The notes under the pieces: generated by a model
The model's database searches: none
Told to the model about the DNA's origin: nothing
Seen by the model: the letters and a program-made list of their open reading frames with translations, nothing else
Shown: positions 5,249 to 50,109 of the stretch, piece after piece
Layout: the number at the start of each line of letters is the position of its first letter
How positions within the stretch are numbered: the stretch's first letter is position 1
IMG/VR virus record: IMGVR_UViG_3300050821_002260
Coordinates: 27,992-91,991 of that record
DNA length: 64,000 nucleotides
Source of the DNA: a virus
Reading direction: 5' to 3' (one strand)
Program-made: the position numbers and the translations under genes

Positions 5249-5273
5249 TCGGGAACGCGACTTGTTTCCGAAA

Positions 5274-7215
5274 CTAAACCGTGCCATCATCTCCGAGAAA
5301 CAGGAAACGGCTATCAATCATGCCGACCTCAAAGCGGGAACGCGACTTGAAACGGTAAACTTCCATCTGGAACGACTGCCCAGATGCCGGATTCTCTTGG
5401 ATGATTTCCAAGGGGTCGCGGCGCTGAAAGACCAAGCACTTCTTCGGGTCGCCAAGAATCCAAACTTTGGAAGTCAGGAACCTGGATACCAGAAGCTTGT
5501 ACAAGCCTTGCAGCGGGTTCACCGTGTTGACGTAACCCGTAGCGTCAGAGGACGCGGACGGAACAGACGGCTGCAACGTAGAATTCAGCAGCTTGGCTCC
5601 CACGAACTTGTCGATTGGCGAAACCAATAGAGTGTTCGGAGAGACCAAGAACTTGTTTCCAAGTGGGTCCGTAATGTTCATCAGCGAAATATCTGCCGAT
5701 TCTAGGTTAGCTTGAGACAGACGCGTGAAAGTGGCAGGGCGATTGCCCTTCGGTAGAGTGTTGTATGTGCCGTTGCCCACTCCGCCAACGCCTACTGTAT
5801 CGTTGTTGAAAGTCACATCTGGGTCGACAGTGACCCCCTGGACCGTGAATCCAGTGCCGATAATCTTCCCGATCACGTAAATTTCTTCCATGATCTTGAA
5901 GTTTTCGCCCATCTGGGATGCACGGTTCTTAATTTGTCCCGTCTGCATTCTGTTACTTGCTAACCCTGCGACAACTAGCAAAACTATCGCAAGGCGGACC
6001 ACCTGTTTCCAGTGGTCTCTACTTGTCACCAAGCAGTTCGGACTATATCTTTTCGGAGTCATGCTGCCCTCCGAGTCTGGCGTGTAGTCTCTACGGATTT
6101 CATGAGTTTCTGAAAATGAGCCTTCCAGTAAGACCTATTTACATTTGTTCTAGTGTGACAAGGCACGCAAAGAGAAATCAAGTTGTACATCCAACAGTTC
6201 TTCTTATCGTAGTTTATGTGATGAACCGACAGACGCTTTGGGTTTTTCTTATCACACTCTCTACAAGTGTGATTGTCACGAACTAGAACTCTTCTCCTAA
6301 GCCTGCGAGTCCACCGTTCGTGATATGGATGCTCTGTAGAACCACCGTTCCATAGCGGATGATTCTTACCGGCCATGACACCGATGTGAGCCAAACTAAG
6401 AGCATCCTTCTGAGCCTCTGTACGTTTCATACCTAGATTGTGAGAACCGTTTTCTCGATTATATCTCTTCAGTGACCTTGAAATTCTAGAGCCAACTTCA
6501 GGTCTCGAAGCTGGATTTCTCTTTCCAAGTTTAGATTGGCTAATTCTCTTTCGGCCTTCTTTCGTCTGACGACACATTTCTGTGCCATTCTTTTTGAAGA
6601 AAGCTATAACGGACTTACTGATTCGGCGACGGACGGAGGCTCTCTTAGCCGGGTTCTTGCTTCCCAGCTTAGAGGCCCTTATCTTGGCCTTTGTTGCTTC
6701 CGTATGATGCCAACCTTTTCCTCTCATGATCTTTCCTCGGTATTGTCTCGTCAGTTGACGAGAGGTTCACCGATATAGCCAGATTTATCGACGACCAGTG
6801 TTAACAAATCGTCGTCAAACAATTCGCGCTCGAACGCCTCAATCATACCGAATTTCTGGTTGGTCAAGTGGCGGTCGAGTCCAACTACTGGATTGTCCTG
6901 GAACTCTTGACCACGATCAACTCTCTTCGGTAGATTGGGACGGAACAGCGGAGCGTAATACTCTTGGAAGCGGCGGGATGCCACTTCTGTGACTAGATCA
7001 GGATATACGACCGGGACCGTGTTGTAACTGTTGATTGCATAAGTTTGGATACCCGCCCTCAACAGTTGGCCGAATGCAGACTCAGCATTAGCTTCCCGCA
7101 ACCTAGTAGCCTGATTGTAGACAGACTCACGGAGGCGTTTGAAGCTGAGCTGAGGGCTGAACCAATCGATCTTGGCTGCGACCTCTTCCCATGGACCTAC
7201 TGGACGTGTGCTCAT
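5274..7215 (-). CDS. Major capsid protein, gene interrupted by a group I intron (two exons)
   Basis: Exon 1 is 6758-7215 and exon 2 is 5274-5964. Joining them gives 1149 nt, a 382-residue protein. Exon 1 alone would end at a TGA only six codons past the inferred splice site (reading ...GYIGEPLVN-stop). Exon 2 continues with LASNRMQTGQIKNRAS in the frame that the splice restores. ATG 7215 is preceded by GGAGGC. The call rests on gene order (protease-scaffold, decoration-type protein, then this gene), length, and a following terminator; no signature motif was used. The N-terminus carries two L-R-E-(S/A) motifs at residues 28-31 and 39-42, candidate prohead protease cleavage sites. The exact splice junction is inferred from the U-before / G-last rule and frame restoration. 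Confidence 0.8.
5965..6757 (-). other. Group I intron in the major capsid gene (about 793 nt)
   Basis: The 3' part holds AAGATATAGTCC (6040-6051), the classic P3/P7 core sequence of group I introns. The upstream GACTA in the end of the HNH frame can form P7 with TAGTC, and CGGAG/CTCCG can form P8. Downstream hairpins include GACCAC...GTGGTC with a GAAA tetraloop and a GCGATAG/CTA..TCGC stem (P9-type). At the 5' end, CTCGTC and GACGAG around AACT form a P1-like stem over the predicted splice site. The last exon base is T (6758) and the last intron base is G (5965), as expected. P1 shows U-A rather than the usual U-G at the splice site, so the boundaries may be off by a few bases. Confidence 0.85.
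6059..6727 (-). CDS. HNH homing endonuclease encoded in the group I intron
   Basis: A 222-residue protein. The N-terminal half carries NUMOD3-type DNA-binding repeats (HHTEATKAKIRASKLGSKNP and a second copy near KRISQSKLGKRNP). The C-terminal half is an HNH nuclease: CRECDKKNPKRLSVHHINYD with KKN and a closing CVPCH zinc pair. ATG 6727 has SD GAGGAAAG and begins 30 nt into the intron. The 3' end of the frame overlaps the intron core (the P7 strand). It is expected to cut intronless capsid alleles and spread the intron. Confidence 0.88.
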   Translation of the reverse strand: MRGKGWHHTEATKAKIRASKLGSKNPAKRASVRRRISKSVIAFFKKNGTEMCRQTKEGRKRISQSKLGKRNPASRPEVGSRISRSLKRYNRENGSHNLGMKRTEAQKDALSLAHIGVMAGKNHPLWNGGSTEHPYHERWTRRLRRRVLVRDNHTCRECDKKNPKRLSVHHINYDKKNCWMYNLISLCVPCHTRTNVNRSYWKAHFQKLMKSVETTRQTRRAA

Positions 7216-27698: not shown

Positions 27699-29263
27699 TA
27701 TGCACTCCTTTTCTTCTTAAAGATAACTCGCCCGAATAGGCCGGATTTGTTTGCGTGTCTAAGTGCTTCCACTTGCTTCACTCTCCTGAGTTTCCCTTTG
27801 CTGAGAGCGTAGACAGGTATTTTCCTTTTCAGAGCATGAACTGTTTCACTGAACACCCCGGCTGTGAGACGCTTCCCTTTCGCTGGCTTGAGCACGAGGC
27901 GTTTAGATTTATCTATCTTCTCATGGAAATATCCCATGCCTAGCTCTGCGTGCTTCTTTGTCGTTGGAACGCTCACGCCTTCATTCGGGAATGCTTCTTG
28001 GATGCGGTCTATGTTCGCCTCTTCAGCGTCTGTATTGTAGTGAGACATTGGACGAGCGAAATATGTTTTCTTCGCTTCTCTGAGGAAGTTGCCCACTCTG
28101 GACTCGAAGGTCCTAGACGTTTTCATCTCTTTAGGCTTTAGAGCAGAGAGTTTATGACTTCCATTGCTATTGCTGCTCACAGCCATCCTATGACCGGCTG
28201 GCGATTGTACAATAGAATGGATAGCTTGGACTGCTCCTTCTGTACCAGTCAATCGAGAGCCAACTTCTAAAACTTTCCAGCCAAGTTCCTTTAGATGCTC
28301 CAGCGCTTCCTCATGACCACCCTTCAACTCTTCCTTTTGTTGCTCAGGAGTCCGTGGAGTAGTTGGTTGATTTTGCTGCATCTGCTGAGCGGCTTGCTTC
28401 GCTGCTCTATCTTTCTGTGCCTGAGCAATCATATTCAATTGAGGCTGAGTGCGGCTGACGACCTGCATCATGTTCATTGTGCGCGGGTCGTTTTGCAGAT
28501 TCTGCTGCATAGACTTTTGCTGATTGGTTTTGGCTGAACCGGCGTCTCTAGGATTTCTTACTCCCCACTTTTGACCCTTGACGCCATGCTCTCGCACTTC
28601 TGGATTTTCCATTATGTCTTGGTGGTGACCCAGAATCGACTTGGTCATGTCCTGGTCTGTGCCACGACCGGCCATTTGTCCAGTGGTAGCGAGATACGAT
28701 TCGTACTCTGGTTTCTCGAAAACATCTTCTGGAAGCTGAAGTGATGCGCCTGCTCGTGACGCCACTAGTTTCTTCGTCGTGTGCTTCTTTACAAAAGCAC
28801 GCTCCCTGAATTTCCACATTGGAATAGCGTCAATCCCACCGAAGAATTTGTCGTCATCATAATGTTGTTTGAAGCACCGTTTAGCAGCATCGGATGAGGC
28901 AAAACCCAACATGACCTTGTCCTCATCAAATTCTGCTCCGTCTGGCGTGTTGCAATGAACGACGTAGGCGAAAGCAGCATCTTCGTTTGGTCCCACAAAT
29001 ACATCAAGTGCGTCACCATCTACTCCTTCTGTGCCGGGGATGTATCCGTATGGCAGACGCATCTTGGTGCGCCACTCTTCGCCGTCGTCATCGACTCCCT
29101 TACGGACACTCCCCTTGCGATTCTCTATGCTGATTGGGATATTCTGGAACGTGGTCTTACCGTGGAGCTTACGATTTTCACGAAGGCGAATCATCTTCAC
29201 CTTGAAATCGTGAATCTCCTTGGGTCCCTGGAGTATCGTCCGGCCACGATCGTCTACGTACAA
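27698..29263 (-). CDS. Multidomain protein: InPase-like, HGVKGQKW motif, deoxyribosyltransferase-like
   Basis: 521 residues from TTG 29263 (SD AAGGGAAAG). Residues 30-170 match the phage inorganic-pyrophosphatase-like domain: MRLPYGYIPGTEGVDGDALD, VFVGPNEDAAFAYVV, EDKVMLGFASSDAAKRCF, FFGGIDAIPMWKFRERAF. Around residue 235 is EHGVKGQKWGVR. A helical Gln-rich linker follows. Residues 400-500 resemble nucleoside 2-deoxyribosyltransferase-like folds: TYFARPMSHYNTDAEEANID, GYFHEKIDKSKRLVL, LTAGVFSETVHALKRKIPVY. Candidate substrates are nucleotides or NAD-type dinucleotides. A RLREN motif is near the N-terminus. Possibly packaged and processed. Confidence 0.65.
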   Translation of the reverse strand: MYVDDRGRTILQGPKEIHDFKVKMIRLRENRKLHGKTTFQNIPISIENRKGSVRKGVDDDGEEWRTKMRLPYGYIPGTEGVDGDALDVFVGPNEDAAFAYVVHCNTPDGAEFDEDKVMLGFASSDAAKRCFKQHYDDDKFFGGIDAIPMWKFRERAFVKKHTTKKLVASRAGASLQLPEDVFEKPEYESYLATTGQMAGRGTDQDMTKSILGHHQDIMENPEVREHGVKGQKWGVRNPRDAGSAKTNQQKSMQQNLQNDPRTMNMMQVVSRTQPQLNMIAQAQKDRAAKQAAQQMQQNQPTTPRTPEQQKEELKGGHEEALEHLKELGWKVLEVGSRLTGTEGAVQAIHSIVQSPAGHRMAVSSNSNGSHKLSALKPKEMKTSRTFESRVGNFLREAKKTYFARPMSHYNTDAEEANIDRIQEAFPNEGVSVPTTKKHAELGMGYFHEKIDKSKRLVLKPAKGKRLTAGVFSETVHALKRKIPVYALSKGKLRRVKQVEALRHANKSGLFGRVIFKKKRSA

Positions 29264-41674: not shown

Positions 41675-41880
41675 GATTTTTTCTTTGTCTTAGAGTTGGA
41701 GCCGTGCTCTACGTCGTACTGTCTCAGCTGTTTCTTCTTCTCTTTAGCGCAATGGGAACAGAATGGAGATTTAATGCCGTAGACAATCTTGCGTTCGTCT
41801 CTTAGAATTATCCTGTCTGGACGCGGACAATTTTCGCCTACGCATAGAGGCCATTCAATTTCTTTCTCGTTTCGATGCAC
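41671..41880 (-). CDS. Small zinc-ribbon-like protein
   Basis: 69 residues from GTG 41880 (SD AGAGGGT), overlapping the portal C-terminus by 26 nt. CVGENC and FCSHCAKEKKKQ give a C-x4-C ... C-x2-C set. Begins HRNEKEIEWPL. Basic C-terminus. Resembles phage cysteine-ribbon proteins of unknown role. Confidence 0.5.
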   Translation of the reverse strand: MHRNEKEIEWPLCVGENCPRPDRIILRDERKIVYGIKSPFCSHCAKEKKKQLRQYDVEHGSNSKTKKKS

Positions 41881-44800
41881 CGTACCCTCTTGGAGAATTC
41901 CGCTTGCCAGATGCTACTCCGTGTGCGGATTTCTCAGTGGGGAAATTCTCTGTCCTGGGCCTTTGGAGGCGCTCACCGTCTTGAGGCTTGAAGGGAGACA
42001 TAGATTCTTTCTGTTTGACACCTAGCATCCCAAATGTTTGTTTCAATTTGCTAATACCATGACCTTCGTCCTGTACTTCACCTTTGCTATTCCTGTGTTT
42101 CCAATGACCATCTGACCAGATTGTCAGTGTGCCTTTATTTGGATGCTTGTATGCCTTGACGTTGGAGTTTCCCTTGAGAAACTTAAATCCACTAGCCTTA
42201 GCTAGTTCCGTAACTTTCTTATGAGGGCCACTTCCAGGTCCACCTTCTTGAATTTCGCGTGGGAAGCGGTAGTGGCCGTCGCTGCCCCTGACCGCTTCCT
42301 TGTTCAGGTTGCCATGCTTCGCAGCTTTCTTTGCTTTGGTAATCAGGTCGCCTCTATCGAGCGACTTTTGGTCTCGCACCTTATGCGGAGACTGAATACG
42401 ATCCTGTCTCCTCCCGACCCCATGACGCTCGTACCGTAGATTTGCTGCTTCCCGTTTGATATTGCTTGCCATGTCACGTGGGTCGCGCCCTGCCCAAGGA
42501 TCATGCTTTCCATCTGCCCCCACGCTTGCGTTATGAGTTGTTGCAATTCCTTGTCTGCCGGGGGATGCTGTTCCGGGAGCAACGTCTTCATCTGATTCCT
42601 CCAAAGCGTTCTTGACGATACTTACGACCTGCCTAGCTTCCTTGTCTTCGCCTTCTTCAGCTTCTCCTGTAGACTGTTTGGAAGAGGATGAGCCAGACCC
42701 GCCTGCTCCTGGAATCTTGCCCATCCCCATTCCGCTTGCGCCTTTTCCACTTCCACCAGAAGACGTTCCACCTCCCTGACCCGTTTGAGCAGAGTCGGTA
42801 CCCTTGGTCACCTGCTGATACGCAGTATTGATCAAGAATTCCTTCATTGCATCTTCCTCTGCGATAGATTGCTGTTCCTGGTCGTAGTCGTAGCTGGTCA
42901 TCTGCATTTCCTTGGCGGCAGCAGATGCCGTCCTGCGATGCGACCACCACGACATAGACTCGCCGAACGCGAAGTCCTTCAGCTTCTCGGACCTGTTCTC
43001 TTCTGCGAGCGCTGGATATGTGGTCTCGACAGTGACGCTGAGGTCGCGCGGTATTTCGCCACGATCTTTGGCGCGTTCGAAGACCCGCTGCGCGTCTTGC
43101 AGGAAAAACTCTTCCATTAACTCTTGCTTGTCTTCAAACGTCTTGATGTCAGGCTCTGTGCCTACGAGCGCTTCTGCTTTCCCGCCGCCAGAACCGCTGC
43201 CCATGTATTGCTGTGATAGACCGACGCCCATGCCGATGATGACCAGCAACATTTCCCAGTCGCCTTGCGTCTCTGGAGCGCCGACTTCTGCCTTGACGCC
43301 GTTAAGTTCTGCCGCTTTGTTATGGATAAAGAAGCCGCCGGGAGTCGGGGGATTCATCATCTGCTGTTGGACCTGCTGGACTGTAGCCGCGTCGCCTTCT
43401 ACCGCGACGTCTAGGATGAACAGATTCGCCATCTTGTTGCGGACTACGCGGTCTGTAGCGTACTCCTTGATGCGCTTGAGCCAGCCCAAGACCGCGAATA
43501 GTTCGCTGCGACCGCGGACTTCGCCTTCCACTGTGTTAATTTTCATGTGGAAGTAATGGAGCGCTGGGACTTGTCGAATGATGAACTTGATTGTTGGGAC
43601 TGGTAGATCAACAAACCACATGTAGCGCGTGGGGTACTGCTGATGGATGTAAAATTCGTTGTCAGCGTCGTCTGGGTCCGTAATCACTTCCCAAACTGTT
43701 GACGGGTCCAGTTGGCGCAACTTCAATCCCCACGGCGCATCGTAGTACCGAATAAACTGTTCTCCAAAGACCAGTAGACTGCGGAGAATTTTCTTGCTCG
43801 TGATGTGCAGATTGTTCTTGGTCCAGTGCCTATCAAGGATGGTCTGGCATTGCACTTTCCAGTCTTGTGGCTGCCTGACCTGCCCACGAGAAATGTTTTG
43901 CGCCATCTGTTGCAGGTTGCCAGCGTTAGGAGTTTGCTTCTTCTGTGCCTGCTCTTCAGCACGAGACAGCGCACGCATCACTGTCATCTTGACGCCTTTG
44001 CCGAGTACGAACTGAGTGATGACATTGACTATCCGCTTGGCGATTGGATTATGTGTAAATGCTTGATAGGCTTTACTGTTGTGACTAAACACACCGATAG
44101 ACAAGGCGAAATTCTGATTCCTGTAATCAGATTCAGCGGTTTCAATGTGATAGACTTTTCGTTTACCTATTGGATAGACTGCCACAACTTTGTGATTCCA
44201 ATATTTTCCCCAACGAGCTCCTAACATTGCACGTATTTGCTTCTCTTTCTTCTTAGGATCTTTGTATCTCTTCTTCAGAGAAGCCACAGTTTTTCTTCTG
44301 CGTTCTGGTGTCCACGTCTTTGGATATTTTCCTTCAGCGTGTGCTTTCTTCTGGGCATCAGATAATTTTTTCCTGCCTTCTTCAGACACCTTTACGCCAA
44401 CCCTACCTTTAGAGATTGCTCTGTAAATCTCATTTCGCTCTCCAGAAGCGTGTTGTCTAGCGACCTCTTTAGAGCGTTTGGCATTCACTTCAGGAGTATT
44501 GTGAGCGCGGTGCAATTCCATGTGCTCAGGATAAGTCACAGCTTTCAGGTTCTGCGGTGTATTATTCGCTTTCCTAAAATCACTGTGATGAATCAAGTAG
44601 TGTTCGCCAGTTTCCTTAAATAATTGTGCTGTAGTCTTTCCGTTTTGATATTCGTAAGAAATCTGATGAGTGAATTCCCACTTTTCTGATTCAGGCTGCC
44701 ATAGACTTTCGTATCCAGACAAACCATTTCTTTTTCTGTAGATACGATACAACGGCATCATACTATCTTCTGGTAACAGTTTTCCAGATTCTTTGAAAGT

Positions 44801-45853
44801 GCCATCCCTCATTAACATCAGGTGGTCTTCTGACGCTATAAAAGACCTGCCACTATCTAGAAGCACGCAGACACATTCCTTCTCACCCATCTCGTACACG
44901 TTGGTCAGCTTGACGGGCTCAATTCGTTGTGAGTCTTGATTGAACTTATAACCCCAGACAAATTTCTTATGTTCTAATTTTTTCTTCAAATCTAGAATTG
45001 TCGGGTTCGTTCCATCGAGCAAGGCTATTTCTGTGTCTCCAGAAAAACAATGTTGATCGAGGTAGTCGAACCAGTACAATTGCTTGTTGTACGGTCCGGC
45101 TATCAGCGGCGTGAAGTCCGGCTCTCTTCCAGCTAGATTGAAACTGTTCCCGCCGTCCCAGTTGGGACTAATCTGCCCTACGCCGCCAGAGCTTCCGATG
45201 TCCTCCTGTGAGAAGAAGTCCTCGCGCAATTTCTTGTACTCGTTGACGAAGCCTGACTCCTTCAGCCTGCGACCGATTTGCCTGTCCACCTTGTTATAGA
45301 GGCCGACCAGCTTGGGATTCAGCCTGACGCCAGCCACGGTCGCTTGTCCGGCTTCTCTCAGCTTGGTTCTTTTTGCTAGACCCGACAATAGCTCCGTCTG
45401 AATCTTGGCTTCTCTCAGCTTTCGGTAGTACGGGGATTTCATGTAGTCAATGAGCGTGGGATAGTGCGCTTCTCTGAATATCCCGTTCTTCATTTGTGCT
45501 ACTGAGGAAATGATCAGCTTAGCGTCCACGTCCATGACGACCGCTTCTTTGTGGTAGGTGATTTGCGTCTGACTGGTTTCGTCTGGACGGGAGATAGCGT
45601 CCATTTCTTCACGAGTCGGTGGCGTGATGTACGGATTGGACATCGTGATATACGGCTTGAACGGGGCGACCTTGGACTCGGGGTCGATTGTGGGGAGCGG
45701 CGCTCCTTCGTCTACGTAGTCCTTGCCATTGTTGAACTGGTCCTTCTCGCGTTCCAGTTTGACGGACTGCTTGCCAGACGCGCTACGAATGAAAGGGAGC
45801 GGCGCGTTCTTGTTGGGAGGCGAGTTGGTCGGGTTGACTACTTTGGAAGCCAT
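41855..45853 (-). CDS. Portal protein precursor interrupted by an HNH intein
   Basis: 1332 residues from ATG 45853 (SD CAGGAG). After removal of the 324-residue intein (residues 269-592) the portal is 1008 residues. Portal character: AYQAFTHNPIAKRIVNVITQ, SKKILRSLLVFGEQFIRYYD, ALHYFHMKINTVEGEVRGRS, EYATDRVVRNKMANLFILDV. The C-terminal 300 residues are an accessory extension with a Gly/Ser-rich linker and a GGPGSGP module near residue 1200, followed by VTELAKASGFKFLKG. L-x-E motifs (KLREA twice, RLKES, KLRED) lie in the N-terminal 210. A promoter-like element lies upstream. Confidence 0.88.
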   Translation of the reverse strand: MASKVVNPTNSPPNKNAPLPFIRSASGKQSVKLEREKDQFNNGKDYVDEGAPLPTIDPESKVAPFKPYITMSNPYITPPTREEMDAISRPDETSQTQITYHKEAVVMDVDAKLIISSVAQMKNGIFREAHYPTLIDYMKSPYYRKLREAKIQTELLSGLAKRTKLREAGQATVAGVRLNPKLVGLYNKVDRQIGRRLKESGFVNEYKKLREDFFSQEDIGSSGGVGQISPNWDGGNSFNLAGREPDFTPLIAGPYNKQLYWFDYLDQHCFSGDTEIALLDGTNPTILDLKKKLEHKKFVWGYKFNQDSQRIEPVKLTNVYEMGEKECVCVLLDSGRSFIASEDHLMLMRDGTFKESGKLLPEDSMMPLYRIYRKRNGLSGYESLWQPESEKWEFTHQISYEYQNGKTTAQLFKETGEHYLIHHSDFRKANNTPQNLKAVTYPEHMELHRAHNTPEVNAKRSKEVARQHASGERNEIYRAISKGRVGVKVSEEGRKKLSDAQKKAHAEGKYPKTWTPERRRKTVASLKKRYKDPKKKEKQIRAMLGARWGKYWNHKVVAVYPIGKRKVYHIETAESDYRNQNFALSIGVFSHNSKAYQAFTHNPIAKRIVNVITQFVLGKGVKMTVMRALSRAEEQAQKKQTPNAGNLQQMAQNISRGQVRQPQDWKVQCQTILDRHWTKNNLHITSKKILRSLLVFGEQFIRYYDAPWGLKLRQLDPSTVWEVITDPDDADNEFYIHQQYPTRYMWFVDLPVPTIKFIIRQVPALHYFHMKINTVEGEVRGRSELFAVLGWLKRIKEYATDRVVRNKMANLFILDVAVEGDAATVQQVQQQMMNPPTPGGFFIHNKAAELNGVKAEVGAPETQGDWEMLLVIIGMGVGLSQQYMGSGSGGGKAEALVGTEPDIKTFEDKQELMEEFFLQDAQRVFERAKDRGEIPRDLSVTVETTYPALAEENRSEKLKDFAFGESMSWWSHRRTASAAAKEMQMTSYDYDQEQQSIAEEDAMKEFLINTAYQQVTKGTDSAQTGQGGGTSSGGSGKGASGMGMGKIPGAGGSGSSSSKQSTGEAEEGEDKEARQVVSIVKNALEESDEDVAPGTASPGRQGIATTHNASVGADGKHDPWAGRDPRDMASNIKREAANLRYERHGVGRRQDRIQSPHKVRDQKSLDRGDLITKAKKAAKHGNLNKEAVRGSDGHYRFPREIQEGGPGSGPHKKVTELAKASGFKFLKGNSNVKAYKHPNKGTLTIWSDGHWKHRNSKGEVQDEGHGISKLKQTFGMLGVKQKESMSPFKPQDGERLQRPRTENFPTEKSAHGVASGKRNSPRGYGASKRERN
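44078..45049 (-). other. Intein with HNH homing domain inside the portal
   Basis: Residues 269-592 of the precursor. Cys1 with block A CFSGDTEIALLDGTNPTILD; block B GRSFIASEDHLMLMRDG (the T/S-x-x-H site); block F KVVAVYPIGKRKVYHIETAE; block G ending FSHN with +1 Ser (SKAYQAF). The middle holds an HNH-type nuclease: HYLIHHSDFRKANNTPQNLK, then NUMOD3-like helices (SEEGRKKLSDAQKKAHAEGK). All splicing residues appear intact: Cys1, penultimate His, terminal Asn, Ser+1. Confidence 0.92.
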
Positions 45854-45866
45854 TTGTTCTCCTGAA

Positions 45867-45879
45867 CAAAATTACTTAT
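45867..45879 (-). promoter_or_regulatory. Putative late promoter element (ATAAGTAATTTTG)
   Basis: Recurrent motif in the gap between the terminase nuclease stop and the portal ATG. Confidence 0.5.
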
Positions 45880-46526
45880 CAATACTGACTCCTGAAGACA
45901 TCATAGGGGTCCCCAATGTGGTGTCTCCTTCCGGTCCCTCCCGCTATCACGACCGCGAATCCCTTGCTAGTGCCGCCAGCGTATTCTTGATTTACGAAGT
46001 CGGGCCCTGTCAGCATGTGGACCACGCCGCACGCCGCGTCCACTGTGTCATCGTGGTCACCGAACGGTGCATCCAGCGCTTCCTTGATGAAACGGCGGAA
46101 ACACGGATGCGCTTCCAGATGTCCATGACTGCCTCTGACGGCGCGGATGCGGACTCTGCCTGTTTCGAAGTGTGGCGTGGACAGCTGCCATTTGTAGACC
46201 TTGTCTCCAGGCTGATCGACTGGGACCACTGGCAATCCCTTTTCCCACGCTTGCTGACCGAGTGCCCACTGGTAGCCATTTCGCTCGACGCCGATTTTCA
46301 CAGAATGCCATGCTACGTGCTCCCTGACCATAACTCTTACTTGATCTGGGAAGGGGATTTGCGCTCTGTACATATCTAGCAGATAGACCAGTTCTTTTAT
46401 CCTGACCGCAGTACACAGACAGAACCAGTCAGCTTGGACCGTTCCATCTGGCTTCACCTTGACGCCCGGATCGTTTTCGGACTTCAAAGCCAAATCAATA
46501 TACTGGAGCGGCCTAATCGTTATCAT
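45879..46526 (-). CDS. Terminase large subunit, nuclease part (separate gene)
   Basis: 215 residues from ATG 46526. RNase-H-like nuclease landmarks of TerL: strand with aspartate QYIDLALK, ADWFCLCTAVRIKELVYLLD (usual T-x-I-V-V...D-A/M-Y pattern), PVVPVDQPGDK, and the C-terminal aspartates in APFGDHDDTVDAACGVVHML. No ATPase motifs are present; these are in 48252-49511. The break falls at the usual ATPase-nuclease linker. The start overlaps the upstream zinc protein stop (ATGA). Confidence 0.75.
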   Translation of the reverse strand: MITIRPLQYIDLALKSENDPGVKVKPDGTVQADWFCLCTAVRIKELVYLLDMYRAQIPFPDQVRVMVREHVAWHSVKIGVERNGYQWALGQQAWEKGLPVVPVDQPGDKVYKWQLSTPHFETGRVRIRAVRGSHGHLEAHPCFRRFIKEALDAPFGDHDDTVDAACGVVHMLTGPDFVNQEYAGGTSKGFAVVIAGGTGRRHHIGDPYDVFRSQY

Positions 46527-46672
46527 TTTGTCGCGTGTTCGCTATTGCATTTCGGGCACTCGTCGTGGCGGTCTAGCTTTGTGCCGCAGATTGAACAGTA
46601 CAAATCGAACCTAGTGCCCTTTGGTCTTTCCGACTGCTTTTTCACTTCTGTTAGGCGTCTGCTTGTTGCCAT
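46523..46672 (-). CDS. Small zinc-ribbon protein (49 aa)
   Basis: 49 residues from ATG 46672 (SD AAGGGGAAG). Basic N-terminus (ATSRRLTEVKKQSERPKG), then FDLYCSICGTKLDRHDECPK with two C-x2-C pairs. A double-ribbon zinc knuckle. Overlaps the 46611-46751 gene and couples to the terminase nuclease by ATGA. Confidence 0.55.
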   Translation of the reverse strand: MATSRRLTEVKKQSERPKGTRFDLYCSICGTKLDRHDECPKCNSEHATK

Positions 46673-46751
46673 TTTTCTTCCCCTTCTTGTTGTGCAACCA
46701 GTCTGCATTTTCTGCTGTATCGTCGATGCGTACAGTTTTTATTTTCTTCAT
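46611..46751 (-). CDS. Small basic protein (46 aa)
   Basis: 46 residues from ATG 46751, whose ATGA overlaps the ADP-ribosyltransferase stop. Reads MKKIKTVRIDDTAENADWLH then a Lys/Asn/Gly-rich tail (NKKGKKNGNKQTPNRSEKAV). Overlaps the zinc-ribbon gene in another frame by 62 nt. The coupling suggests it is translated; function unknown. Confidence 0.45.
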   Translation of the reverse strand: MKKIKTVRIDDTAENADWLHNKKGKKNGNKQTPNRSEKAVGKTKGH

Positions 46752-47914
46752 GTCATTTCCACGTCGCCCTTCTTGAACTTTTCGAACGGTTGGTGATGTC
46801 CCACTATGTATTCTTTCTCGCTAGAATGCGACGAGAACAGCCACGGCGTCGCGCTATGGACAGCCCAGATATTGCTAGGGTCCACTTTGAGTTTGAGCAC
46901 GACATCTCCAAAGCCGGAAGCTACAGATTTAGACTGGCTCCAACTGCTCAAACTGTTGACCGCCAGTTTCACCTCACCGTCGTTTTTGATGGCGTCGATT
47001 ATGTCCTTAGCCGCTTTGCCTGCCACGCCGCGATACAGAACTGAGATGCCCTGTTCTTTTGCGTAGGCTCCAGCGTAGGCTTTCATAGCCATGACAGCCG
47101 GTTTCATCTTGTCAGCATCGCCCTTTGTTTCGTCGTACTCGTCCTTGATTTTGTTGCTGTGACCATCGGTGTATTCACCGCTCGGCTTGCGACCGTAATA
47201 CTCCATAGCGACCATGCGCATCGCTTGCGGCTTGTCAGAATTCACAGTACCAGTCCATGCTCTGACAGCGTATTCCATGCTATCTCTAGAGTCTTGAGAA
47301 ACTCCCATCTCTTTGTAGTAATTGCTGAATAGCTCCTTGGAACCCTTGGGATCGTTTGGTCCCATAGACATGTAATCTTTGGCGAGCTTAGTTGCCTTAG
47401 CTTCTGTCTCTTCGGTCCTCTTCTCAGACTCTGGAGTTTGGACAGACGCTCTATTAGCAACGAATAAGCGAATAGAAGCTTCGTCACCTAGCTTGAACAG
47501 CCCACCTTTGCCAGCGCCAGATATTTCCAGAGACCATCGACCAGTTTGCTTGCCTGCTTTGCGAATACCGTTTAGAGAATGCTTCTGGTCCTGGTCTTCG
47601 GAACTCATCTTCGATTTCAGTTCTGAAAACTTAATCCAATCACCATTTAGAGACTCTAGGAAATTGTACGTCTTCCCTTTCAGTGAGCCATGCTTCCAAT
47701 AGCCTCCGGCTTTGGATGGGTCGATGGTCTTGCTGCCATACTTGGATTTCTTAGGAGTATCGTCTTCCTGTTTATGGTGATGCCACTTCTGGCCGAGGAC
47801 GCCGTGCTCAGTGAGACGTGTGGACTCCACGAATTTCTGCACTCTGACTGTGAATGGCAGCGGTCGATGCAGTATTTTGTTATACTGAGCTATCGACTCT
47901 TCCAGAGACCACAT
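46748..47914 (-). CDS. Mono-ADP-ribosyltransferase-like protein with HGVLGQKW motif
   Basis: 388 residues from ATG 47914 (SD GGAGTGGAG). Near residue 36 is EHGVLGQKWHHHKQ. Residues 60-140 hold a basic beta module (GGYWKHGSLKGKTYNFLESL). The C-terminal 180 residues have the R-S-E triad of ADP-ribosyltransferases: Arg in SVLYRGVAGK, S-x-S-type LSSWSQSKSVASGF, and E-x-E in SSEKEYIVGHHQ, with FGDVVLKLKVDPSNIWAVHS between. Fits arginine-type or related ARTs such as T4 Alt/ModB, which modify host proteins and can be injected. Position inside the terminase operon suggests virion packaging. Confidence 0.75.
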   Translation of the reverse strand: MWSLEESIAQYNKILHRPLPFTVRVQKFVESTRLTEHGVLGQKWHHHKQEDDTPKKSKYGSKTIDPSKAGGYWKHGSLKGKTYNFLESLNGDWIKFSELKSKMSSEDQDQKHSLNGIRKAGKQTGRWSLEISGAGKGGLFKLGDEASIRLFVANRASVQTPESEKRTEETEAKATKLAKDYMSMGPNDPKGSKELFSNYYKEMGVSQDSRDSMEYAVRAWTGTVNSDKPQAMRMVAMEYYGRKPSGEYTDGHSNKIKDEYDETKGDADKMKPAVMAMKAYAGAYAKEQGISVLYRGVAGKAAKDIIDAIKNDGEVKLAVNSLSSWSQSKSVASGFGDVVLKLKVDPSNIWAVHSATPWLFSSHSSEKEYIVGHHQPFEKFKKGDVEMT

Positions 47915-48137
47915 TTCGTCTCCACTCCTTCAATATCAAACTCGCCTCTGTGCCCCAGTCCATAGACCTCATCAGCGCCCCGACCTTGTCCTTGTGGTCA
48001 TCATCCATTTCTGCCTGCCTGCAATAGAGCCATAGACCGATTGCTTGGAAGAATTTACGCTGGATAGTGACTGGCATGGAGTGTGCAAGGACAGGTGCAA
48101 CTCTTTTTTGTGCAGTTGTTATGGTTTCCATGAGCAC
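47880..48137 (-). CDS. Hypothetical protein
   Basis: 85 residues if started at the first Met codon region (48137); ATG 48077 (PVTIQRKFFQAIGL) is another possibility, neither with an obvious SD. Helical (LWLYCRQAEMDDDHKDKVGA; LILKEWRRNVVSGRVDSSV). Overlaps the flanking genes on both sides by up to 83 nt, so the true start is uncertain. Confidence 0.4.
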   Translation of the reverse strand: MLMETITTAQKRVAPVLAHSMPVTIQRKFFQAIGLWLYCRQAEMDDDHKDKVGALMRSMDWGTEASLILKEWRRNVVSGRVDSSV

Positions 48138-48255
48138 ATGCGTGACTCACCCCTTGCGTTTTCATTAGATGTCCATGAGTTTTCTTAGCTCTTCTCTTAG
48201 CTCTCAAATCACTCCATGTAGGTGCATTGAAATGTATTGCTTCAGCCAGCCTCAT
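48055..48255 (-). CDS. Small Cys/His-rich protein
   Basis: 66 residues from ATG 48255 (SD GAGGAG, ATGA overlap with the terminase stop). The C-terminus has ACAHGNHNNCTKKSCTCPCT plus HASH, a dense Cys/His cluster likely binding zinc. The N-terminal part is basic (RAKRRAKKTHGHLMK). Function unknown. Confidence 0.5.
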   Translation of the reverse strand: MRLAEAIHFNAPTWSDLRAKRRAKKTHGHLMKTQGVSHACAHGNHNNCTKKSCTCPCTLHASHYPA

Positions 48256-49511
48256 GCTGCTTTCTCCTCTACTTCTGGCAAGAGATAGTGGTAGCCGTCT
48301 TCTTCGTTGAGGTACAATTGCTGAGAATCAAAAAAGTAGAACCAATCTTTCTTGAAAATTGCTCCCTCACCTTCCTGTATCTCATTCTGCTTCTCTCTGG
48401 AAAATGAAGTGATTCCCTGAGTCACACGGTCCATGAGCAATTCTCGGATGCCCCATCCAAACACCATCGGCTTCTTAGTTTCGGTATCTATCAGTGGCTC
48501 CCCAAAATTGTTCACCTTCTCTGTGGCTGGCCAAAGCACTTCATAATCGTCTGTGAGCAGTTCCACGTCCACGATTTGCTCTTCCGCCTTGACGTCCTGT
48601 AGACCGCGCACGTACCTTCCTGTGTCCGTGATATAGACCCATCCCTCGATTTCCTTGTCTGGATTCTTTGGGTCGGGTATCATCGGATACTTGATGATGG
48701 CTTTCTCTACGTTGTGCTTCCACGTCCGTGTTTCAAGCAATGTATTGTATAGATCTCGTCTGTTTTTCCTAGTTCCAGTAACTCGAAACTGAGTTGGCGG
48801 TTCGCGTAGATTCCAGACCGTGCCCCAGAACCAGTTTTCGATGGTTGCCATGCGTTCGATGGTCTTTGTGTTTTCATCGTCGAGTGGGTCATCGGCATTG
48901 ATTGTCTCAAAATGACCGCCAGTAATACCTCCAAGCACTCCGACTTTCTCATAGGTGTGGTCCTTCTCTACGCTGTCGTGGATATTTCTCTTACAACTGA
49001 ATCTGCTCTTGAGCCAATTGTTCGGGTCGCGTATATCCCCAAAATCTTCGTTGAGATAATGGTTCTCTTCTATAGTGACTCGGACCTGTTCGGCGTATTT
49101 TCCAGCCATCTCATCGGTCTTGGAAATTTGCAGGAATCGGTACGTGACCGCTTCTAAATGGTTCTGTATCAGGTTTTCGTAGATGCGGTAGAGCGGCTGT
49201 CCATACGAGAATATCCAAGATTTGCCATGATCGCGTGGTGCCAGTTCTAGCAGGTATTTCACGCTCCAGAGTTGCAGCCAGCGACGCTGATGCTCTGGCA
49301 ACCGAAATCCAAGGTAGTAAGTGAGGAAGAACTCCGGGCTATGCAGGACCAGTTGATGGCGGAATTCTCTAGACGTGTATTGCCTGATGAGAGTCCGCAA
49401 GCCGTTGATGCCTTGACCCTTGGCTTGCGAGAGCAGGTCAGCTAGCTTTTTCTTGGTCGACTTCTTGAACTTCGGAATTGTCGGCATTTGGAGCAGGAGC
49501 AGGCAACGCAT
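48252..49511 (-). CDS. Terminase large subunit, ATPase part (separate gene)
   Basis: 419 residues (411 from ATG 49487). Walker A-type LELAPRDHGKSWIFSYGQ, adenine-side RRWLQLWSVKY, Walker B-type TINADDPLDDENT, coupling motif VTGTRKNRRDLY. The sequence ends soon after FKKDWFYFFDSQQLYLNEED, the region where a full TerL passes into the nuclease domain. That domain is encoded 1.7 kb downstream (45879-46526). It translocates DNA into the capsid in complex with the portal. Overlaps the upstream gene by 74 nt or 50 nt depending on start. Confidence 0.85.
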   Translation of the reverse strand: MRCLLLLQMPTIPKFKKSTKKKLADLLSQAKGQGINGLRTLIRQYTSREFRHQLVLHSPEFFLTYYLGFRLPEHQRRWLQLWSVKYLLELAPRDHGKSWIFSYGQPLYRIYENLIQNHLEAVTYRFLQISKTDEMAGKYAEQVRVTIEENHYLNEDFGDIRDPNNWLKSRFSCKRNIHDSVEKDHTYEKVGVLGGITGGHFETINADDPLDDENTKTIERMATIENWFWGTVWNLREPPTQFRVTGTRKNRRDLYNTLLETRTWKHNVEKAIIKYPMIPDPKNPDKEIEGWVYITDTGRYVRGLQDVKAEEQIVDVELLTDDYEVLWPATEKVNNFGEPLIDTETKKPMVFGWGIRELLMDRVTQGITSFSREKQNEIQEGEGAIFKKDWFYFFDSQQLYLNEEDGYHYLLPEVEEKAA

Positions 49512-50109
49512 TGATTACCTTGCTCACCGTCTTCCCCTTGACAATCTTGGGCTGGACTTCCTTGCCGCCTCCAGCCATGTTCCTGAAAGCTTCCACGAAC
49601 GCTACCATGATTTCCTGGTCCATCGGCTTATGCAAGTGCTTGACTGAACCGTGCATTTTCACAGCGCCAGATATTTGTTGCTTGCTCTCCACATTCTTTT
49701 TGTAGAAGCCACGACCAGCTAGGAACTTTTCAGCGACGTTGTAGCGGAGATAGTCGTCTGGAGAGTCCATGGCTTCTTCTACGATACGAATTGCGCGACC
49801 CGCTTTGGCATCTAGGCGACCGTCGATGTTTTCGGCGTACTTGGCGGCATAGTGCAGATAGTAGTTTTTGAACAGCTTGTGATAGTGCATGTAGCGGTAG
49901 AACGTGTTGGTATCCATGCCCATCGTCTTGCAGGCATCCTTGACAGTCATTCCGTTGACGACCTTGCGAGCTAGCTTCATTTGCCTGCGAGTCAGCTTGT
50001 CGTAGCCTCTCGGGACTATCTTCTCATCGCGCATCCGCTCTCGCATAGAACGTGTGAGAGGAGCGTCTGGATAGTCTTTGAGGAGCCTTGGGAAACGACG
50101 TATTTTCAT
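49438..50109 (-). CDS. Putative small terminase subunit
   Basis: 223 residues from ATG 50109. N-terminus RRFPRLLKDYPDAPLTRSMR, then an HTH: LTRRQMKLARKVVNGMTVKD, ACKTMGMDTNTFYRYMHYHK. The middle is helical (AKAGRAIRIVEEAMDSPDDY LRYN) and the C-terminus is disordered. HTH plus oligomerisation helix directly upstream of TerL fits the DNA-recognition subunit. A promoter-like element lies upstream, so it starts the late region. Confidence 0.7.
   Translation of the reverse strand: MKIRRFPRLLKDYPDAPLTRSMRERMRDEKIVPRGYDKLTRRQMKLARKVVNGMTVKDACKTMGMDTNTFYRYMHYHKLFKNYYLHYAAKYAENIDGRLDAKAGRAIRIVEEAMDSPDDYLRYNVAEKFLAGRGFYKKNVESKQQISGAVKMHGSVKHLHKPMDQEIMVAFVEAFRNMAGGGKEVQPKIVKGKTVSKVINALPAPAPNADNSEVQEVDQEKAS

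Follow-up and report, generated by a model that had tools for sequence, protein, structure and literature searches.

Is the large terminase (TerL), usually taken to be one protein with two domains in all tailed phages and widely used as a one-gene marker, encoded as two separate proteins in the virus of record IMGVR_UViG_3300050821_002260? The window, the whole stretch of 64,000 nucleotides analysed here, comprises bases 27992-91991 of this 91,991-base virus record. On its minus strand lie one open reading frame (ORF) for a TerL ATPase half (48252..49487) and another for a TerL nuclease half (45879..46526), with 1725 bp between the two. A sequence-only reading had placed separate ATPase and nuclease genes of a terminase at 45879-49511. 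Both ORFs exist as it described, and each matches the TerL profile phrog_38; the nuclease coordinates and the ATPase ORF stood, but the probable ATPase start, as judged from alignment with relatives, is 49487 (MPTIPKF...) rather than 49511, where the ORF opens. The explanation favored here, and in our assessment a probable one, is that the large terminase consists of two separate polypeptides working as a non-covalent complex, with an island of accessory genes at the position of the former linker.

In hmmscan searches against PHROGs, the ATPase matched phrog_38 at profile positions 260-538 of 760 (E 3e-37) and the nuclease at positions 563-712 (E 4e-14). The AlphaFold2 model of the ATPase (predicted local distance difference test, pLDDT, 79) matched residues 58-360 of T4 gp17 (Z 17.9) and 2-294 of PhiV-1 TerL (Z 23.5), and the model of the nuclease (pLDDT 78) matched residues 391-562 (Z 15.2) and 355-538 (Z 14.0) of these chains, respectively. 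The two proteins matched consecutive, non-overlapping parts of one profile and of the same solved TerL chains, so that only the linker falls between them, in agreement with the earlier claim that the ATPase frame ends at the nuclease-domain boundary. In the joined homologue L016 the join reads ...YYDRDFLVMQKGRWYF-KARPLNILASVDFAYS; in its window counterpart, ...FFDSQQLYLNEEDGYHYL ends one protein and ITIRPLQYIDLALKS begins the other. A Pfam search matched neither half, and PDB sequence profiles returned nothing useful.

The catalytic residues were intact in both proteins and, in alignments, were invariant across split and joined homologues. Walker A (APRDHGKS, near 49241) and Walker B (INADD, near 48902) were conserved in the ATPase, and a candidate coupling motif was located near 48782. 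The acidic residues of the RNase H-fold nuclease were likewise invariant and were assigned to motif I (D11, near 46496), motif II (E81) and motif III (D159 and D160). One outgroup alignment (A5) paired D19 with the DPA motif of joined TerLs; D11 was taken as motif I over D19 because strand 1 ends at residue 11 in the model. The predicted structure of the nuclease half retained the N-terminal strand and the TerL-type fold. The canonical TerLs T4 gp17 and PhiV-1 TerL share with the split proteins a Walker-motif ATPase fold, an RNase H-fold nuclease with acidic residues and a gene order of small terminase (TerS), TerL and portal, but differ in being single proteins, where the split clade encodes two that are set apart by 1.1-3.7 kb of other genes.

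Scans of viral contigs showed the same arrangement in six more virus records (L002, L003, L005, L007, L012 and L013); L004, close to L003 but shorter and breaking off inside the cargo, was not counted among the seven. In all seven records the two domains were two ORFs and the break fell at the same linker. An assembly artefact or chance was rejected because the same layout occurred in independent records. Among the split records, pairs of ATPases were 53-79% identical and pairs of nucleases 50-81%, and the distance matrices of the two halves were correlated (Mantel r 0.90, a value reached by 11 of 5040 label permutations). Codon differences in both halves affected 60-63% of sites at third positions versus 24-32% at positions 1 and 2, an excess that indicates purifying selection on both; given this selection and the intact motifs, a pseudogene was also rejected. 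When the seven split TerLs were placed in a tree alongside 15 joined ones, they formed one clade (support 100/100), a small group of phages that are all uncultured. Uninterrupted relatives were looked for, and joined TerLs were found only outside this tight clade; as the nearest were about 30% identical or less, the ancestral joined gene was not found. A tblastn search of INPHARED returned distant TerLs only, and a scan of genome contigs found no relative.

Beyond what the sequence-only reading had proposed, the split is conserved across the clade while the cargo changes. The genes that it had listed between the halves were all recovered on the minus strand of the window: a Cys/His-rich protein of 66 amino acids without a family match (48055..48255), which overlaps the ATPase stop (ATGA); a hypothetical protein of 85 amino acids with a GTG start (47880..48137); an ADP-ribosyltransferase (ART)-like cargo protein of 388 amino acids (46748..47914) with a PF07357 (DRAT) match (E 1.4e-7), the R-S-E motifs LYRGV, LSSWS and EKEYI, and an HGVLGQKW tag; a small ORF of 46 amino acids (46611..46751); and a small zinc-ribbon-like RLTEVKK protein (46523..46672, the ORF opening at 46708), whose stop overlaps the nuclease start. 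Each of these genes overlaps the next, an operon-like arrangement in which the halves and the cargo would be co-expressed. Across the records the gap measured 1093-3720 bp. RLTEVKK proteins also immediately preceded the nuclease in L002, L007 and L013, and ART-like proteins were present in L007 (42% identical to the window protein) and, by motif only, in L002. An HAD-type phosphatase was found in the gaps of L002, L003, L005, L007 and L013, and the L012 gap held a pyrophosphatase-topoisomerase IB fusion and a PI3/4-kinase-like protein. Several cargo proteins carried an HGxxGxKW tag, which corresponds to Pfam DUF7211 in L007 and L012; as a guess, the tagged proteins may be virion-associated. 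A tag of the same kind (HGVKGQKWGVR, at 28588) occurs elsewhere in the window in an inorganic-pyrophosphatase-like protein (PF18823; 27698-29263, minus strand). A Vsr/DUF559-type endonuclease was encoded within the L005 gap and another, 40% identical to it, directly after the nuclease gene in L013 (8981-9691). These two genes make an endonuclease-driven split of terL, originating in a homing-endonuclease insertion, plausible; the window gap contained no endonuclease gene.

If the halves were rejoined, by an undetected or trans-splicing intron or by a split intein, a single TerL chain would be restored. There is precedent for this, since terL is spliced from introns in ICP1 (PMC10448857), in the Jug phages (PMC12363816) and in Bastillevirinae, where the introns carry Vsr-type endonucleases (PMC11878797), and the window's own portal contains an intein. 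The intron-split genes resemble those of the split clade in their interrupted terL coding sequence and nearby endonucleases; they are, however, rejoined by RNA splicing, whereas the genes of the split clade yielded no intron, break at the domain linker and enclose accessory genes. No Rfam intron was detected at gathering thresholds in the window or its relatives, or, when permissive thresholds were applied, near the gaps in the window, L005 and L013, as the sequence-only reading, which saw no intron core, had suggested. The frames were also closed at the borders. Upstream of its start the nuclease frame was open for 5, 5, 8, 0, 18, 21 and 0 codons in the window, L002, L003, L005, L007, L012 and L013, respectively, and in L002 and L013 the ATPase frame met another stop 1-2 codons beyond its own; any splice junction is thereby confined to the last ATPase codons and the first nuclease codons. 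The gap contents were unrelated, and a junction sequence common to them was sought and not found. An intron was rejected on the combination of these observations. For a split intein, neither an N-intein on the first half nor a C-intein on the second was found: only about 25-30 residues follow the last conserved Trp of the ATPase half, and 0-21 open codons before the nuclease are too few for a typical C-intein. With the ATPase ending so soon after its last conserved motif and only 5 open codons ahead of the window nuclease, an intein was rejected, and remnants of introns or inteins were absent too. Splicing of the halves is considered unlikely, and a restored single chain quite improbable. The TerL profiles, the single clade, the absence of introns and inteins and the lack of a complete TerL in the records support the earlier claim that the gene is truly split, with cargo placed at the boundary between the domains.

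The two-protein terminase was weighed against two further explanations. The nuclease might act alone, for example only cutting concatemers, outside the packaging motor complex; it is predicted to be a complete folded domain and has its own start and an intact active site. Against this, it is co-inherited with the ATPase half, as the matrix correlation indicates, lies in the same operon and retains the TerL-type fold with its N-terminal strand, and a lone role was judged improbable. Alternatively, the split TerL might not be the working terminase, a complete TerL being encoded outside the sequenced part of the genome or borrowed from another phage, as could be imagined for records that lack end repeats and may be fragments. 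In seven records of 25-104 kb, however, the halves were adjacent to TerS and portal genes and under purifying selection. A phrog_38 search, which did not list the L002 nuclease although it is clear by alignment, gave no other credible TerL match in the window's record or the six relatives; the sole extra match, in G002 (E 0.016 over 23 positions), was regarded as noise. This alternative was held to be highly improbable. Several points nonetheless count against two polypeptides assembling in trans. The split is known from one clade of seven records only, and these may be incomplete; the DNA may be compatible with splicing between the final codons of the ATPase and the opening codons of the nuclease; the binding of the two halves to each other, although likely, is something we infer; and the endonuclease origin draws on two of the seven genomes, neither of them the window.

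The layout around the split TerL is that of an ordinary tailed phage. A probable TerS (49438..50109, minus strand), which weakly matched PHROG families for the terminase small subunit and for DNA binding, lies upstream of TerL, and genes for SbcCD, a UvsX-like recombinase and DNA polymerase lie further upstream. Downstream of the nuclease is the portal protein (41855..45853, minus strand; PF05136, E 5e-9; phrog_10963). Its intein (44078-45049, minus strand) comprises 324 amino acids with an HNH-like part, and its borders were identified; the L003 portal contains two inteins, both smaller and inserted elsewhere, and no intein was seen in the portals of L002 and L005. A GGPGSGP motif occurs in four predicted window proteins (42244, 12912, 12086 and 10236, minus strand), among them a probable head protease and the portal, where it lies at the C-terminus, and is present in L002 and L003 too. 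In L012, a permuted tmRNA (RF04321, 85 bits; 5253-5485) was located a short distance upstream of the split terminase.

Known split terL genes are either intron-spliced or shortened at the N terminus. In Enterococcus phage iF6, Vsr-type genes cut a 95-amino-acid piece off terL (PMC10054541). This gene is likewise broken, with Vsr-type endonuclease genes between its parts as in the L005 gap, but it loses a short N-terminal piece, whereas the split clade separates two complete domains. Fractured genes with split inteins, noted by Dassa et al. in 2009 (a study cited in PMC10343443), reportedly also have an essential gene in two parts with an endonuclease between them; in the split clade one member, L005, has a Vsr-like endonuclease in that position, while the clade lacks a split intein and, in most members, an endonuclease in the gap. 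In the literature covered, from which subscription journals were mostly absent, no prior split of terL at the domain boundary without splicing was found.

The N-terminal protein is proposed to be the ATPase that would drive DNA into the head, and the C-terminal protein the RNase H-fold nuclease that would make the initiation and termination cuts. The two would most likely act together non-covalently at the portal; the gene for the probable TerS lies immediately before theirs, and the former linker position would serve as an island for variable accessory genes of the same operon. The split could also be adaptive rather than a tolerated scar, permitting separate amounts of motor and cutter and their exchange while DNA is packaged, a possible escape from TerL sensors, and a stable landing site for virion-borne effector genes, an idea that we regard as rather doubtful. 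Avs3 is one such host sensor that recognises TerL (PDB 8dgc). The C-terminal nuclease domain of TerL has been termed universal (PMC7824862). Annotation pipelines that expect a single TerL gene may misread genomes of the split clade, and a clade with motor and cutter apart could show, as an experiment of nature, whether packaging and end cutting require covalent coupling.
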